Shown here: positions 40,414 through 47,416 of the stretch, one piece after another
Position numbering within the stretch: the first letter of the stretch is position 1
How the letters are laid out: the number at the start of each line of letters is the position of its first letter
Translations under genes and position numbers: made by a program
Assembly (NCBI GenBank): GCA_026393855.1
Contig: JAPKZJ010000070.1
Span: 1 to 64,000, forward strand
Reading direction: 5' to 3'
DNA from: Candidatus Aminicenantes bacterium
GTDB lineage: Bacteria > Acidobacteriota > Aminicenantia > Aminicenantales > UBA4085
DNA length: 64,000 bases
The notes under the pieces: model-generated
What the model saw: only the letters and a program-made list of their open reading frames with translations
What the model was told of the DNA's origin: nothing
The model's database searches: none

Positions 40414-41340
40414 CTAGACGCCGGCTTGCCCCGGCGGCCGCACGCCGCGTCCGACCCGGCCCGTCAAGGCGTCGCCCAGCTCTTGGCGCGCCTTTTCGGC
40501 CAAGGCCTGCAAGTCCTTGACGACGTCGGGATGGCTCGCGGCGACGTCCGTCGTCTCGCCGATGTCCGACTCGAGGTCGTAAAGCTCCAGCCCGGTCTTC
40601 CCCTGGGCATAAGGTCCCGGGAATCCATTTTGGCCCGGATCGACGCCCCGATAGGACCGGTAGACGTGGGGGAAATGGAGCTTCCAGCGGCCTTGCCGGA
40701 CCGCCTGCAGCTCGCGGCCGTAATAGAAAAAGAAGTGGTCGCGGGGCACGGCCTTCTCGTCGCCGGCCAGGATCGGCACCAGGCTGACGCCGTCGATCGG
40801 CTGCGGCGGCAACGGGGCGCCGACGATCTCCGCCAGCGTTGGCAGGATGTCGATCGTCGAGGCGATCAGGCTGATGGTGCGTCCAGCGGGGATCCGGCCC
40901 GGCCAACGCATCAAGCAAGGTACCCGGGCTCCTCCCTCCCACATCGTCCCTTTGCCCTCGCGAAGCGGCCCCGCCGACCCCGAGCTGGTCCCGAAGTTCA
41001 GCCAGGGGCCGTTGTCACTGGCAAAAACAACCAGGGTGTTCTCGTCCAACTTGAGGCGGTGGAGCGTCTCGAAGAGGCGTCCGGCCGACCAATCGATCTC
41101 CATCATCACGTCGCCGTAAGGCCCCTGGCGGCTGCGGCCGCGGAATTTGTCGGAGACCCCGAGCGGTGTGTGGGGCATGGAGTGGGCCAGGTAGAGGAAG
41201 AACGGCCGCTCCCGATTGGCCTCGATGAATCTGACCGCCCGCTCGGTGTAGCGCGTCGTCAGCGCGTCCATCTGGGCCAGGCTCCCGATCGTCTCGACCG
41301 TCCGGGCGCCGCTTCGGTGGTCTTGTCCCGGGCGCTCCCA
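40414..41340 (-). pseudogene. Sulfatase gene lacking its 5' third
   Basis: About 305 codons of intact sulfatase C-terminal sequence: RYTERAVRFIEANRERPFFL, HSMPHTPLGV, VFASDNGPW (metal-binding Asp-Asn) and GKGTMWEGGARVP. The N-terminal part, with the formylglycine motif Cys/Ser-x-Pro-x-Arg and the first metal Asp pair, is absent. Homology fades near 41330, just before the hairpin repeat at 41351. The open frame continues upstream only as antisense of other sequence. No start codon or ribosome site suits the remnant. Confidence 0.85.
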
Positions 41341-41350
41341 TTTTACGTGA

Positions 41351-41387
41351 TACGTTCGCGGCGCCAAACCCCGATTTTCAAATCGGG
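41351..41387. repeat. Dispersed hairpin repeat, copy 2, at a truncation junction
   Basis: TACGTTCGCGGCGC (41351-41364), spacer CAAA, then CCCCGATTTTCAAATCGGG (41369-41387). Same blocks and order as 25786-25824. It separates the broken end of the sulfatase from the broken end of the oxidoreductase remnant. Confidence 0.75.
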
Positions 41388-41532
41388 TCACGGCTTCATG
41401 CCTGCCCCGGCCGCCGGCCTGCTCCTGGCCTAGGAGATCCTGGACGGGCGGGCCGCGACAATCAACATCTCGCCCCTCCGGCTGGAACGCTTCCGGACGG
41501 GGGATCTGCTCAGCGAATACAACGTCTTCTGA
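41386..41532 (+). pseudogene. C-terminal remnant of a FAD-dependent oxidoreductase
   Basis: The plus strand reads GHGFMPAPAAGLLLA, a TAG stop (41431-41433), then in the same frame EILDGRAATINISPLRLERF and RTGDLLSEYNVF before a TGA at 41530-41532. This is the usual end of DAO-type FAD oxidoreductases (sarcosine/glycine oxidase group: FAD-binding Gly-His-Gly-x-x-x-x-Pro, closing SPxRxxRF). The rest of the gene is absent and the fragment has an in-frame stop, so it is dead. It begins exactly at the hairpin repeat. Confidence 0.8.
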
Positions 41533-41583
41533 CCTCCGCGCCCGGTCGGCGTTTCTGCTACAATGGCAGCCCGGAGCACACTC

Positions 41584-43197
41584 ATGAAGCTGTTCGGAAA
41601 ACCGGCCGTTGAAGGCGTCATGGCCCGCCAGGATGGAGGCTTCCGTCTGGAGGCTTCCGTGGCGACGATCGCCGGCGGGTTTATGGCTTCCGGCCGGGTT
41701 CGGGGCCGGGGCGACCGGATCGAAGTCTTCCGCGCGCCCGCTCCCCGCCGCTTTCTCCTCAACAACTGGCAGTCTTGGGGGCCCACCCAGGCCCTTGACC
41801 TCGGCGGCCGGCTCGAAGGCGTCGCGGAACGGATGGCGAACTACAGTCGTTGGGTTTTCTCGCCCATCCCCGCAGTCTTCGCCGGGGCCGTGGTCAGTGA
41901 TTATTTCATCGCTTGGGAGGACACGCTCGTCGGGTTTCTCTCTTCCCAAATCGCCCACCCGTATTTCGTCGTCGAGGGCGACGAAATCGCCGGCTATCTG
42001 GAGTATTTCGGCGCCGACCAGCCCGACTGGGTCCGGCTGGAACCCCTGGTCATCCTGCGGGGAGCTCCGATCGAGGACTTGCTCGAGGCCTACGCGCTTT
42101 TAGCGGGTTCGGACGCGGATGTCCGAGTCCCCGCCCCCAACCCGGTCGGGTGGTCCAGCTGGTATCAATATTTCACCAACCTGACCGGCGCCGACGTGGA
42201 CAAGAACCTCCGCTTGGCGGGCCAGGGGTTCCCCTTTGAAGTCTTCCAGATCGACGACGGCTATGAGGCCGACATAGGCGATTGGCGGACCGTCAAGCCC
42301 GGATTTCCCAACCCGGCGGACCTGGCTCGCCGTATTCGCGAGCGAGGTTTCATGGCCGGGATCTGGACCGCGCCGTTCAGCGCTTCGGAGACTTCGGAGA
42401 TTTTCGGCCGGCACCCGGACTGGTTCGTCTCGGAGGACGGACGGCCCAAGCCCTGTTATAGGAATTGGAAAAAAACCATTTACGCCCTGGATACCACCCA
42501 CCCTGACGTCCAGGCCTGGCTGTTCGAGACGTTCGAGGCCTTTAAAAGGATGGGGTATACCTATTTCAAGATCGACTTTCTCTTCGCCGCAGCCATGGCG
42601 GGAGAGCGACGCGAAGCGGCGACTCCCATGCAAGCCTATCGGCGGGGGATGGACGTCATCAACAAGGCGGCGGCCGGCGGCTTCGTCCTGGCCTGCGGCG
42701 CGCCGCTTCTGCCCTCGCTCGGATTCTGCCGGGGCATGCGCGTCGGCGAGGATACGGCCCCGTTCTGGAATCCGCGGATGTCGGGCCTGCAGGGGCCCAA
42801 CGCCTACATCGCCCTGAAAAACCCGATTTTGCGTTGGTTTATGCACCGGCGTTGGTGGCTCAACGACCCCGACTGCCTGCTGCTGCGCGAGATGGACATC
42901 GATCTGACCTTCGACGAGAAGGCCCTCTACGCCCGCGCCGCGGGGCTCCTGGACGCCATGCTCATCGACAGCGACGATCTGGAGCTTGTCGATGCCCGCG
43001 GCCGGGCCCTGCTGGCCGAGGCCGTATCACTGAAAGGCGGCCGGCCCCGCGTTCGCGGCGTGCTGGACGACGATTTCTACCTGATCGAATCGATAGGCGG
43101 CCCGGCAGGAGATAAGCGCTTCGCTGCCAACCTGTCGGAGCGGATGCGGGTGATGGATGGGCGCGAGGTGGGCCCCCGCTCGGGCGCTTTTCTTTAG
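41584..43197 (+). CDS. Alpha-galactosidase, GH36
   Basis: 537 residues from the ATG at 41584, chosen because relatives such as Thermotoga GalA begin at the same point (MxxFGK) and GGAG lies upstream; an ATG at 41563 adds seven residues. No signal peptide, so cytoplasmic. The N-terminal beta domain includes LLNNWQSWGP, then a TIM barrel. Catalytic residues are clear: nucleophile Asp331 in YFKIDF and acid/base Asp390 in RVGEDTAPFW; WSSWYQYF and FQIDDGYEADIGDW are substrate-site stretches. It should release galactose from alpha-galactosides. It overlaps the convergent barrel gene by 4 bp. Confidence 0.94.
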   Translation: MKLFGKPAVEGVMARQDGGFRLEASVATIAGGFMASGRVRGRGDRIEVFRAPAPRRFLLNNWQSWGPTQALDLGGRLEGVAERMANYSRWVFSPIPAVFAGAVVSDYFIAWEDTLVGFLSSQIAHPYFVVEGDEIAGYLEYFGADQPDWVRLEPLVILRGAPIEDLLEAYALLAGSDADVRVPAPNPVGWSSWYQYFTNLTGADVDKNLRLAGQGFPFEVFQIDDGYEADIGDWRTVKPGFPNPADLARRIRERGFMAGIWTAPFSASETSEIFGRHPDWFVSEDGRPKPCYRNWKKTIYALDTTHPDVQAWLFETFEAFKRMGYTYFKIDFLFAAAMAGERREAATPMQAYRRGMDVINKAAAGGFVLACGAPLLPSLGFCRGMRVGEDTAPFWNPRMSGLQGPNAYIALKNPILRWFMHRRWWLNDPDCLLLREMDIDLTFDEKALYARAAGLLDAMLIDSDDLELVDARGRALLAEAVSLKGGRPRVRGVLDDDFYLIESIGGPAGDKRFAANLSERMRVMDGREVGPRSGAFL

Positions 43198-43757
43198 AGT
43201 CCGAAGCCGAGCCCGGCCACGGCCCGGAATCCGCCCAGATCGACCCGGTCGTCGAAGGGGTCGACCCAGAGGACGCCGTACTTGATCTCGGCCGAGAGGA
43301 AAACCCGCTTCATGATCCGGGCGTTCAGCCCGAGGGCCATGGAGAATGAGATGTCGTTGCCTTTGACGTTGTAAGCGGTCAGAAAAGGGCTGTCGATATG
43401 GATCTTGTACATGGAAACGCCGGGGCCGATTTTGAGATAGGGGGTCAGCCGGCCGGTCGGCCATTCCTGCCGGTAGAAAAGCTCGAACCCGGAAACGCTC
43501 AATGAAAAGAGGTCTCCGAATAGGCCGACCCGGGCCTCGCGTTTGTAGGCGGCTTCATAGGACAGGCCGACGCTACCGGTAGGGGAGACGCGGAAGGTGA
43601 TCGTCGGGACGGCCACGACGCCGCTTCCAAACACGCCCCGCAGGTTGGCGTCCTTGAGCGTTCGGACGCCGTAGAGGAGACCGATCTCTCCCCGGAAGCC
43701 CCAGGCGGATGCCGCCAGGACGAAGAGGAGCAGGCCGGCCGGGATGGTTTTCTTCAT
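43194..43757 (-). CDS. Predicted small outer-membrane beta-barrel protein
   Basis: 187 residues from the ATG at 43757, which starts a signal peptide (to about 20, ASAWG). Longer readings run into the upstream gene. Alternating strand patterns, Gly/Tyr-rich turns (LTPYLKIGPGVSMYKI) and a C-terminal FRAVAGLGFGL suggest an eight-stranded OmpA/OmpW-like barrel. No specific family is assigned. It follows the pseudo-papain gene by 11 bp, so it is probably in the same unit. Confidence 0.75.
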   Translation of the reverse strand: MKKTIPAGLLLFVLAASAWGFRGEIGLLYGVRTLKDANLRGVFGSGVVAVPTITFRVSPTGSVGLSYEAAYKREARVGLFGDLFSLSVSGFELFYRQEWPTGRLTPYLKIGPGVSMYKIHIDSPFLTAYNVKGNDISFSMALGLNARIMKRVFLSAEIKYGVLWVDPFDDRVDLGGFRAVAGLGFGL

Positions 43758-43768
43758 CGGCCGGGATG

Positions 43769-45469
43769 TCAGATCGAGAATTCGGCGGGGTCGCTCTCGC
43801 GGCCGTCCGCCAAGACGGCGGTGACGCGGTAGACGAAGGCGTCGTCCTTCTTCACCGCCCGGACGAAAAAGATCAGCTGCGTGGAGATCGTTTCGCCCAA
43901 CAGGGCGAACGCGGCATCCGTGTCCGCCTGGGCTCGGCGGTAAATCCGGTACTTGGACACGGCCGCCGTGTTCTTGGGGTTGGCCAGCCAAGTCAGCTTG
44001 TCGACATACTCCTTGAAAAAGAAGAAGTTGTTGGTCAGCCGCTCGACCTTGAGCTCGGCCGGGGGATAGGCGGCGGGATAGCCCGCATAGGCCTTGAGGC
44101 AAAGGCTGGTCCGGGCGTATTTCGTCCCGTCGGCCGCGGTCAGATCGGTCCAAACCGCGCCGTCGGGGCTGATGAAGCCTTCGCCCGGATTGGCGGTGAA
44201 TGCAGCCGTCATGTCGGCGATCGGATGTTCCAAGGGGATGGGGAACTCGTCGCCGTCTGTCTGAAGCCTGACGACGACGGAGAAGCGCTGATTGAGGAGC
44301 AGCGGAAGGGAGGTCGTCAGCGGGATGGTCATGAAACCGGGAGTTGAGAAGGACCCGGTCTGGCGGAGGGCCAGGCTGCCGCTCCTCGGCCGGCCGGGGA
44401 CGGCATCCTTATAAATCAAAATCTCGTATGTGCCCGCGGCCGTGAAGGCGTAGAAGCCCACGGCGGCCAATGGGTCGGCGGACGAGGCCACGAACTGGGA
44501 GGCGAACCAGCCGGCATCCGCATCGAAGCCCAGCCGCGAGGTGCAGCCGTTGGGATCGTAGGCGTACTGGACGGTGTAGCCGGCCTTGGGCTCGGCCGTG
44601 AACGCGGCGCTGAAATAGCGGCGGGCCAGGAACGCGTCGTAGTAGGAGACGTAGAAATAACCGCCGCTTCCCCAGGCGGAGCCGAGGCTGTTCTTGCACA
44701 GGAAGGCGCCGTTGCCGGGCGCCGGGGGGGAGAACTTCGCTCGATCGAACGAGTCATCCCAGCCGGCGATGGCGACCGCCCTTGTTTCGCCTTCCGTGCC
44801 GGTGTTGAGGTAGGCGGCCTGGGGGGCGTTATAAGCGGCGGCGGTGAAGACCATATCCGCCCAGATCGCGCCGTAATCCATGACGGCCTGCTTGAGGCGG
44901 TCGTTGTCCAAGGCCGCGGTCCGGGGCGGGAAATAGGCCACGTTCTGGACGTGCTTGACGGCGCTGTCGTCGCGGATCGCCGCCGGCCACGGGTCGTCGG
45001 ATTCGCGGATGGGGTCGGTCCAGCGGGCCAAGGCGCCGACCACGGCGTCGAGCGAGACGGTGCCGAGAAGCCCGGCCCGGAGGTGTTGCTCGGAGAAATC
45101 CCAGACTTCGGAAGGCTTGAGAGAAGACTCCAACGAGGCCAGGGCGGCAAAGACGGTCGATCCGCCGAGCACGCCTTCGTTCCGAACGGGCGTCATCTTG
45201 TTCAGGGCCCGCAGGTCATAGTATGCGGGCAAGGCTTCGGCTTGCATAGGGGCGGAAGCCGCCGTCAGGCGGACGGCATCATGCGTCCCGGCGACGATGG
45301 CGCCCGGGAGGAGCGAGCCCTGGAGCCGGAGAAGTCGGGCCACATCCGGGTGGAGCGGCGCTTGAATGGGCGGAACGCCCGCCGGCGCGGTCTGCGCGCC
45401 GGGCCGGGCCGAGCTGATCCCGCCCGCCGTTAAAATTAGGATAACCGCCAAAAAGGCGCATTTTCGCAT
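43769..45469 (-). CDS. Papain-fold (C1-like) protein lacking its catalytic residues, with lectin-like and FN3-like parts
   Basis: 566 residues with a signal peptide (about 1-21). YYDLRALNKMTPVRNEGVLGGS aligns with the active-site region of C1 peptidases, but Ser104 replaces the nucleophile Cys and Glu98 the oxyanion Gln. In ETRAVAIAGWDDS, Arg230 replaces the catalytic His. Only Asn260 (KNSLGSAWGSGGYFYVSY) remains. After the papain fold come a lectin-like beta domain (about 290-460) and an FN3-like C-terminal domain (about 475-566). It is likely a binding protein built on a protease scaffold. No frameshift or stop is present. Confidence 0.88.
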   Translation of the reverse strand: MRKCAFLAVILILTAGGISSARPGAQTAPAGVPPIQAPLHPDVARLLRLQGSLLPGAIVAGTHDAVRLTAASAPMQAEALPAYYDLRALNKMTPVRNEGVLGGSTVFAALASLESSLKPSEVWDFSEQHLRAGLLGTVSLDAVVGALARWTDPIRESDDPWPAAIRDDSAVKHVQNVAYFPPRTAALDNDRLKQAVMDYGAIWADMVFTAAAYNAPQAAYLNTGTEGETRAVAIAGWDDSFDRAKFSPPAPGNGAFLCKNSLGSAWGSGGYFYVSYYDAFLARRYFSAAFTAEPKAGYTVQYAYDPNGCTSRLGFDADAGWFASQFVASSADPLAAVGFYAFTAAGTYEILIYKDAVPGRPRSGSLALRQTGSFSTPGFMTIPLTTSLPLLLNQRFSVVVRLQTDGDEFPIPLEHPIADMTAAFTANPGEGFISPDGAVWTDLTAADGTKYARTSLCLKAYAGYPAAYPPAELKVERLTNNFFFFKEYVDKLTWLANPKNTAAVSKYRIYRRAQADTDAAFALLGETISTQLIFFVRAVKKDDAFVYRVTAVLADGRESDPAEFSI

Positions 45470-45501: not shown

Positions 45502-46467
45502 CTATTGTAACATAAAGAGGAAACGCGTTGAACGCGATGTGGGCTCACAGCGGAACCGGTCGAGGGCGGTTTTGGCGGCACCCGGCCCGGCGCCGGTCAA
45601 CAGGGCGGAGATGTCCCGGCCGTTGGGCCGCCAGGCGACCGTGCGCCCTTTGTCGTCCGTTGCGGTCAGAGTTTCTTCCGCGGATATGGCGATATTCTTG
45701 TATTTTCCCGCCGCTTCGAGCGCTTTCCGGATCTCGGGGATCCGGGCGGCTGCTTCCTTGGCGGACGCAAATCGGAAGAGAAAGGCCCATTCGCCGCCCT
45801 TCTCGGCCGCGGCGGCCTCCGCGAAGCGGAGTACGTCGCCCGTGAAAAACGGGTGGATATTGTAAAGCCCGATCACGCCTTTGATGTATTTCCGATGCGG
45901 GGAGGATGCGAACTCCGCTGGGAGTCGTTCGAAGAGGTCCGGCGGAGTTCCCCGCGAAGGGAGAAGCGATGCCGCGGCCTCGCCTATCGCCCGCACGCCG
46001 GCCAGGCATTCCGGGCTATCATCGAATCCCGTCACCGTGACCTGGTAGGACCCTTTCCAGAAGTTGAGGTAATAATCCTCGAGATCGGCACCTTGGCCGA
46101 TGGGCACGGATTTGCCTCGTCCGCTGGCCTTGAAGGAAAAGGCGCCGAACGCGGCCCGGGGATCGGTCATTTCGAAGATCTCGAGCGTGACGGTTCGGCC
46201 CGCGGCGTTGCGGTAATCCCGGGCGATCACCCGGCGGAATCCGTATTCCTGATAGATCTCGGCTCCGCCGTCGATGTAGACGAACAGCTCTTCGCCCTGA
46301 AAGCGCTGGATATCGCCGTTCGGCGACCAGCCGGGAACCCGGCCCGCGGGCGGGAGAAAGCCGGCCAAATCGCCGGGCCGCTCGGACTGGGTGGAGAGAG
46401 CCGCCGGTGCGAACAAGACAAGTAGGAGCGCGGCCGTCCAGGCCGCCTGCCGGAGCATCCCCGCCAC
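45502..46467 (-). CDS. Secreted protein of unknown function (DUF6599-like)
   Basis: 321 residues. The GTG at 46467 lies 1 bp after the stop of the DUF362 gene; an ATG at 46458 is an equal start. Signal peptide to about 26. The N-terminal block GELFVYIDGGAEIYQEYGFRRV-like (FVYIDGGAEIYQEYGF) and FEMTDPRAAFGAFSF resemble DUF6599. The middle holds a helical region and the end is basic. Nothing is known of the function. It is encoded between the TAT-exported DUF362 protein and the pseudo-papain, all on the same strand. Confidence 0.78.
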   Translation of the reverse strand: MAGMLRQAAWTAALLLVLFAPAALSTQSERPGDLAGFLPPAGRVPGWSPNGDIQRFQGEELFVYIDGGAEIYQEYGFRRVIARDYRNAAGRTVTLEIFEMTDPRAAFGAFSFKASGRGKSVPIGQGADLEDYYLNFWKGSYQVTVTGFDDSPECLAGVRAIGEAAASLLPSRGTPPDLFERLPAEFASSPHRKYIKGVIGLYNIHPFFTGDVLRFAEAAAAEKGGEWAFLFRFASAKEAAARIPEIRKALEAAGKYKNIAISAEETLTATDDKGRTVAWRPNGRDISALLTGAGPGAAKTALDRFRCEPTSRSTRFLFMLQ

Positions 46468-46468
46468 G

Positions 46469-47416
46469 TCAGACCTTGGCCGTCTCGATCCGGACTTTGC
46501 GCAGGTCGATCTCGCCCAGCTTGCGCTCGAAGGCCTTGCGGATGCAGACGACGTCCGCGGGGTTCAGCCCGATGATCTCCTTGGCGCAGTAGGCGTCGAT
46601 TGCCACCCGGTCCACCCCGGCGATGATCTTGCCGGGCTTGGCCAGGTCGCCGGGTCCCATCGGCCCGTTGCTGGTGATGATCTCAGTGGCGTCGACGATG
46701 TTGAGATGGGGCTTGAAAACGGTGTTGAGGTCGACGATGCAAGTCTCCAAATGCTCGATGTCGGCCGGGTCGGTCTTCCAGTTGGTTTTGTGGAAGGTCC
46801 GGTTGCTGGCCCCGGAGTTAAGCCCCATATGATTTTTGAGCGTGCCGGTGAACTTGTTTCCGGCATGATCCTTGGTGATCGGCATGTTGATATAGAGGTC
46901 GTAGCCGTCGAGCTCCTTGGGCACTCGGGCCTCCGTCAAGGCCTGGCCGCCGGGGATCGCAACGGCCTTGAAATTAGCCTCGTCGCGGGGGATGAGCTTG
47001 AGCGTGATCCCCTCTTCCTGGACGACCTGGGCCAGCCCGGCGCCGTCCCAGTGGGCCTGGGTCAGCAGGCTCAAGCAGGCGATCTCGGAGGCCCCGGCCG
47101 CCTTGCAGAGCTTGATGACGGAGCGCAGAATCTCGGGCTTGGTGAACGTGCCGGGATGCTTGCTCTGGACGTTGGGCAGGAGGGCCACCTTGGCCCCCTT
47201 GGGGACGAAAGCTCCCATGCCGCCCAAGATCGAGACGGCTTTGGCCGTCATAGCGGCCGCGTCCGTGCCGGAGACCACGGCCAGACCGATCGGCTGGGCG
47301 TCCGGGCGCCCGGTCCGGGCCCAGCCCTTCGTCGCTTGAGTTCCGATCAGGGCTGCCGCTCCGAGGGTCGCGCTGCGCCCAATGAATTCGCGTCTTTTTA
47401 GGGTATTTCCGGCCAT
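46469..47416 (-). CDS. DUF362 family protein with TAT signal
   Basis: 315 residues. A twin-arginine signal LKRREFIG is followed by a hydrophobic stretch ending near residue 33, so the folded protein is exported by TAT. DUF362 blocks: LLPNVQSKHPGTFTKPEIL, YINMPITKDHAG, TGTLKNHMGL and GVDRVAIDAYCAKEIIGL. TAT export often marks cofactor proteins, but no cofactor motif is visible. First of a probable four-gene minus-strand unit down to 43194. GGAGG lies before the ATG. Confidence 0.88.
   Translation of the reverse strand: MAGNTLKRREFIGRSATLGAAALIGTQATKGWARTGRPDAQPIGLAVVSGTDAAAMTAKAVSILGGMGAFVPKGAKVALLPNVQSKHPGTFTKPEILRSVIKLCKAAGASEIACLSLLTQAHWDGAGLAQVVQEEGITLKLIPRDEANFKAVAIPGGQALTEARVPKELDGYDLYINMPITKDHAGNKFTGTLKNHMGLNSGASNRTFHKTNWKTDPADIEHLETCIVDLNTVFKPHLNIVDATEIITSNGPMGPGDLAKPGKIIAGVDRVAIDAYCAKEIIGLNPADVVCIRKAFERKLGEIDLRKVRIETAKV

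Follow-up and report, generated by a model that had tools for sequence, protein, structure and literature searches.

A probable papain-fold pseudopeptidase and its adjoining predicted barrel gene in Aminicenantia

Can a papain-fold protein with Glu, Ser and Arg in the places of the oxyanion-hole Gln, the nucleophile Cys and the catalytic His still be an enzyme, and if not, why has its gene been kept? The question is raised by a minus-strand gene (43769-45469) in a 64,000-nucleotide stretch of a Candidatus Aminicenantes genome, the whole of which is here called the window. An earlier note on this DNA had described an intact frame of 566 codons with lectin-like and FN3-like parts. This description holds: the frame, on the minus strand, runs stop-free from an ATG start, and both parts are real.

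The gene and its active-site positions

From N- to C-terminus the protein consists of a signal peptide, a shrunken pro-segment, a C1 domain, a Lectin_like domain and an FN3-like tail. The signal peptide (residues ~1-21; 45407-45469, minus) was recognised by eye from the letters MRK and a hydrophobic stretch; a lipobox is absent. Profile and alignments place the C1 domain, which we read as catalytically dead, at residues 79-290 (44600-45235, minus), and Pfam Peptidase_C1 (PF00112) matches residues 183-275 (E 3e-7, 31.2 bits against a cut-off of 20.7). Pfam Lectin_like (PF18560) covers residues 302-462 (44084-44566, minus; E 4e-35, 121.8 bits against a cut-off of 27), and the tail, which is also found on M6 and S8 peptidases, takes up residues ~466-566 (43772-44074, minus). 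No NCBIfam family matched the protein, and a search of viral contigs found no relatives. A gene on the opposite strand of 43769-45469 was ruled out by stops in the plus-strand reading, and a phage or mobile-element origin was ruled out by hslVU and the metabolic neighbours, which keep synteny.

Upstream lie genes for a DUF6599 protein (45502-46467, minus), kept in several genomes of the family, and a DUF362 protein (46469-47416, minus), kept in part of the family; these two and the pseudopeptidase gene possibly form one operon. Elsewhere in the window, a sulfatase-like frame (40417-41958, minus) matches only from profile position 141 onward and its N-terminal part looks different; this gene may be truncated or frameshifted.

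An AlphaFold model of the whole protein, built from three alignment rows, namely the window protein, L034 and L035, reached a pLDDT of 36.8, and the active site was located solely from the sequence profile. A 15-row family profile was aligned to PDB 4ci7, the structure of the Clostridioides difficile peptidase Cwp84 (E 4e-48; for Cwp84 against the window protein alone, with no profile, E was 4e-21). The active-site residues of Cwp84, namely Gln110, Cys116 (Ala in the mutant that was crystallised as 4ci7) and His262 (PMC4089489), fall on Glu98 (45176-45178, minus), Ser104 (45158-45160, minus), in the column where active C1 members have the catalytic Cys that begins the central helix, and Arg230 (44780-44782, minus). 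Alignment to papains likewise matches these three residues to the Gln of the oxyanion hole, the Cys nucleophile and the His of the dyad, as the earlier note had proposed. Arg230 lies within ETRAVAIAGW, where active C1 members show His in (G/N)HxVxxVGW. The note had also called all key catalytic residues replaced, which is right for the Gln, Cys and His but not for Asn260 (44690-44692, minus), the Asn of KNSWG. This Asn is kept, as the note itself recognised, and the losses extend beyond those that it listed: the motif Trp is Leu262, and both the disulphide Cys and the Gly-Gly substrate wall (CxxC...CxGG) are missing from a shortened stretch at residues 131-146 (45032-45079, minus) where intact relatives read ...HGFDxGPCxGGN....

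Could another Cys and His have taken over? Cysteines past the signal peptide are limited to residues 258, 309 and 457; histidines there stand at positions 40, 63, 129, 173 and 415. His40 and His63 lie within the pro-segment, and none of Cys258, Cys309, Cys457, His129, His173 and His415 falls in the dyad columns of the alignment. A substitute dyad elsewhere in the protein, which the earlier note had held up against its own reading, is ruled out at the level of sequence. Cys258 (44696-44698, minus) and Cys309 (44543-44545, minus) are new in the clade described below, and a bridge between them may join the C1 and lectin domains. Glu98 and Arg230 occur jointly in the window genus and count as one evolutionary event; they may span the former cleft as a salt bridge that replaces the Cys-/His+ ion pair and locks the cleft shut.

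Relatives, order of losses and selection

The gene is present in 3/3 genomes of the window genus (g1) and 4/4 of a sister genus (g3), both in Aminicenantes. Six of these copies have a complete C1 domain, and in all six the frame is intact. In a tree of 44 rows, from which the active-site columns were left out, the six orthologues form one clade (support 100/100, stem 0.56) nested among intact Gln-Cys-His-Asn enzymes. At positions 98/104/230/260 the three species of the window genus have E-S-R-N; in the sister genus, L007 has Q-T-Q-N, L009 has Q-C-Q-N and L008 has Q-C-H-N. A survey of Ser/Arg conservation, suggested by the earlier note, therefore finds the pair in 3/3 species of g1 and Thr/Gln, Cys/Gln or Cys/His in g3. 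The replacements are not due to chance, because both other g1 species carry the same three; because these copies have a common ancestor, Ser/Arg in the three counts as a single event. The CGSC...GPCxGG disulphide, the Gly-Gly substrate wall and the NSWG Trp are gone in 6/6 clade members, and Cys258 and Cys309 have been gained in 6/6.

The losses of the disulphide, the Gly-Gly wall and the NSWG Trp date to the ancestor common with the sister genus. The catalytic residues were lost afterwards, differently in each lineage, and purifying selection held the fold meanwhile. The simplest order would be loss of wall, disulphide and Trp first, then at least two losses of Cys and a minimum of two to three of His.

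Several other relatives are of note. L008 (1324-2985, plus; sister genus), having kept Gln-Cys-His-Asn and lost the wall and Trp, is either a still-active odd enzyme or an early pseudoenzyme. L038 (629-1954, minus) is a paralogue with an independent Cys to Ser change (CDSSWAF) and its His kept; the same genome encodes the intact L018 as well. The class-level relatives L074, L075, L076, L077, L058 and L059 have lost the papain disulphide and kept Cys, His, Asn and the NSWG Trp; disulphide loss alone therefore does not imply dyad loss. Finally, lectin-like C1 proteins have died independently a second time, in another class of the phylum (L146, 73-2763, minus; L147, 640-3330, plus), with Cys replaced by Leu and His by Arg, and with PKD domains. 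The intact paralogues L139 and L140 sit in the same genomes.

Is the dead domain simply decaying? Codon runs were made with IQ-TREE. For the C1 domain of the three g1 copies, omega was 0.14, 0.07 and 0.06 (rough values, dS being 1.6-4.6), and the comparison with omega = 1 gave 2dlnL values of 77-142; neutral evolution of the domain in this trio is excluded. In each g1 pair the C1 domain has higher identity (60-70%) than the lectin domain (51-62%). Clade-wide, omega is 0.111 for C1 and 0.094 for lectin, the C1/lectin values in two active sets being 0.083/0.133 and 0.078/0.105; the dead clade's C1 domain thus shows some mild relative relaxation, not decay. The dead C1 region of L146/L147 has an omega of 0.20 at low divergence (2dlnL 30). 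Purifying selection at the codon level, for which the earlier note had advised a check, is accordingly found in the dead C1 domain. Homologues with the normal dyad, which the note had feared would reveal a decaying copy, do exist, yet this clade shows no decay.

The FN3 tail and the barrel gene

A partner gene (43194-43757, minus), which begins 11 bases past the pseudopeptidase stop, encodes a 187-aa protein with a signal peptide and a predicted 8-stranded barrel of the OmpA/Ail/OmpX type. Pfam OMP_b-brl matches it below the cut-off of 28.7 (22.8 bits, E 1e-4). Eight strands and a signal helix are present in its AlphaFold model (pLDDT 69.5, pTM 0.63), with which Foldseek retrieved OmpA (9fzc; TM 0.72, E 8e-8) as well as Ail and OmpX, at 13-17% identity.

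The barrel gene lies directly downstream of the C1 gene in 7/7 genomes of the clade, and also beside intact relatives in other families. In a count across Aminicenantia in which FN3 tails of at least 100 bits were classed as strong, 39 of 47 such tails had a barrel next downstream on the same strand; conversely, 43 of 55 barrel hits had an FN3 tail upstream. FN3 and barrel distances for 33 pairs gave a Mantel r of 0.77, the best of 5000 permutations giving 0.27, a link that partly reflects shared descent and species history. Where one genome has two pairs, the FN3 tails closest to each other sort by cargo, and the barrels mostly do likewise. The cargo ahead of the tail is a C1-Lectin_like protein, an M6 peptidase, an S8 subtilisin or, in a few cases, of no known kind. 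The window's own genome encodes an M6 protein with an FN3 tail and a barrel gene of its own (G000:C26, 25578-26464, L002). FN3 tail and barrel gene are, in short, an inherited cognate two-gene unit in Aminicenantia, whose cargo is mostly a peptidase of one of three catalytic types. When 396 genomes sampled evenly across the phylum were searched, tails at E <1e-25 were confined to the window's class.

Two DUF7948/SBBP propellers bear the FN3 tail, but no barrel gene follows them directly on the same strand. In L120 (711-5649, plus) FN3-tailed proteins of 804 and 835 aa stand in tandem; the second is a DUF7948/SBBP propeller, and a barrel gene follows downstream on the opposite strand.

It is conceivable, if rather doubtful at present, that Aminicenantia have in this pair a dedicated surface-display or secretion module, the FN3 tail and its adjoining OmpA-type barrel serving to present cysteine, metallo and serine peptidases, and that one cysteine-peptidase cargo became a dead binder with a locked cleft. 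An open-access literature search, which does not prove absence, found no earlier report of an Aminicenantes secretion or display module, of this pseudopeptidase clade or of bacterial C1A pseudoenzymes.

Interpretation and comparison with known systems

We favour, as a fairly probable explanation of the sequence data, a maintained pseudopeptidase: a secreted C1, Lectin_like and FN3 protein that arose from an active cysteine peptidase and is kept as a non-catalytic binder beside its barrel. The protein would be exported, and its FN3 tail would dock on, or be sorted by, the barrel partner at the outer membrane; the dead C1 and Lectin_like domains would form a binding surface for a glycan or a protein partner, and not a cutting site. 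In all probability an old protease has here been turned into a binding protein of the cell surface. Glycan binding via the Lectin_like domain is possible, its Ca-ligand Glu (E414) being kept. The genus-wide replacements, the purifying selection on the fold and the want of any other Cys or His that could, by sequence, take the site support the earlier note where it spoke of a pseudoenzyme. Its suggestion that peptide is bound is weakened by the deletion of the Gly-Gly wall in every clade member. The note had not seen that FN3 tail and barrel gene go together across the class.

Alternatively, the dead domain might be a regulatory decoy: by capturing the substrates or the inhibitors of some active peptidase in the same cell, it would control that peptidase. 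Candidates are at hand, as the genome encodes both the FN3-tailed M6 protein, which has a barrel gene to itself, and a C1-like protein that retains Cys, His and Asn (G000:C87). However, deletion of the wall argues against substrate-like peptide binding, and no active peptidase gene of such a kind was seen adjacent to the pseudopeptidase gene, the nearby hslVU encoding a cytoplasmic protease. We consider a decoy role unlikely. Nor is it likely, by a slightly lower estimate, that the dead C1 domain binds nothing itself. Its fold is conserved and its cleft is not, and the peptidase domain of Cwp84 is closely packed against the lectin-like one (PMC4089489), but in the window genus conservation of C1 equals or exceeds that of the lectin domain.

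Plain decay of a peptidase gene into a pseudogene is improbable. The long stem branch, the shrunken pro-segment and the mild relaxation of the C1 domain would fit it, but neutrality is rejected, all six complete copies have intact frames and the barrel partner is retained throughout the clade. Very improbable, finally, is the serine variant or other hydrolase with new chemistry that the earlier note had offered, in which Ser104 would be the nucleophile and Arg230, Glu98 and Asn260 new helpers: these four residues are identical in 3/3 g1 species and L038 shows that Cys can change to Ser independently with His kept, but the window protein has neither a His base nor an oxyanion Gln, the Glu now at that position would repel the oxyanion, the same sites differ in the sister genus, and the wall and the Trp flanking His/Asn are absent clade-wide.

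If the protein is indeed a maintained non-catalytic binder, what does it add? To our knowledge papain-fold pseudoenzymes are known mostly from eukaryotes. This bacterial one comes with living intermediates, in which, after a common loss of the wall, Cys and His are kept, His alone is lost or everything is lost, and these allow a direct test of the sequence of steps by which an enzyme becomes a binder. Should the FN3-tail/barrel pair be a display system, it would account for the surface placement of several unrelated peptidases in a large uncultured group. As a caution, a 'C1 peptidase' match in an Aminicenantes genome does not always mean proteolytic capacity.

The partner protein resembles OmpA, Ail and OmpX in having 8 strands and a signal peptide but, unlike them, is coupled to an FN3-tailed secreted protein. 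Type IX secretion employs an Ig/FN3-like C-terminal sorting domain (CTD) on secreted peptidases, with involvement of an outer-membrane barrel. The FN3 tail is similar to the CTD in being a C-terminal Ig/FN3-like domain, whereas the Aminicenantia tail has for its partner a small barrel of 8 strands, encoded beside each cargo.

Silicateins, Plasmodium SERA5 and TINAG are inactive papain homologues of eukaryotes; the Ser variants among them, silicatein and SERA5, retain the His. Like the SMIPP-Cs of the scabies mite, they share with the window protein a retained papain fold and the loss of catalytic residues. Unlike silicatein and SERA5, the window protein has neither His nor Gln, is bacterial and carries fused lectin-like and FN3 domains. 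SMIPP-Cs too are inactive papain homologues (PMC5956821).

The closest solved relative is Cwp84 (PDB 4ci7, 4d59), a C1A peptidase with a lectin-like domain whose pro-segment, C1 and Lectin_like parts follow in the same order as in the window protein. The Ca-ligand Glu448 of Cwp84 corresponds to E414; its Ca-ligand Asn487 is Ser455 in the window protein, and Ser in the intact L011 too. Cwp84 retains Gln110, Cys116 and His262 (PMC4089489), whereas the window protein has all three replaced and the substrate wall deleted, and where Cwp84 bears cell-wall repeats the window protein has the FN3 tail and a barrel gene instead. Intact C1-Lectin_like-FN3 proteins of Aminicenantia (L010, L011/L035, L012-L014) have the same architecture and the same adjoining barrel gene, and differ in having the full Gln-Cys-His-Asn set, the CGSC/GPCxGG disulphide with the wall, and the NSWG Trp.
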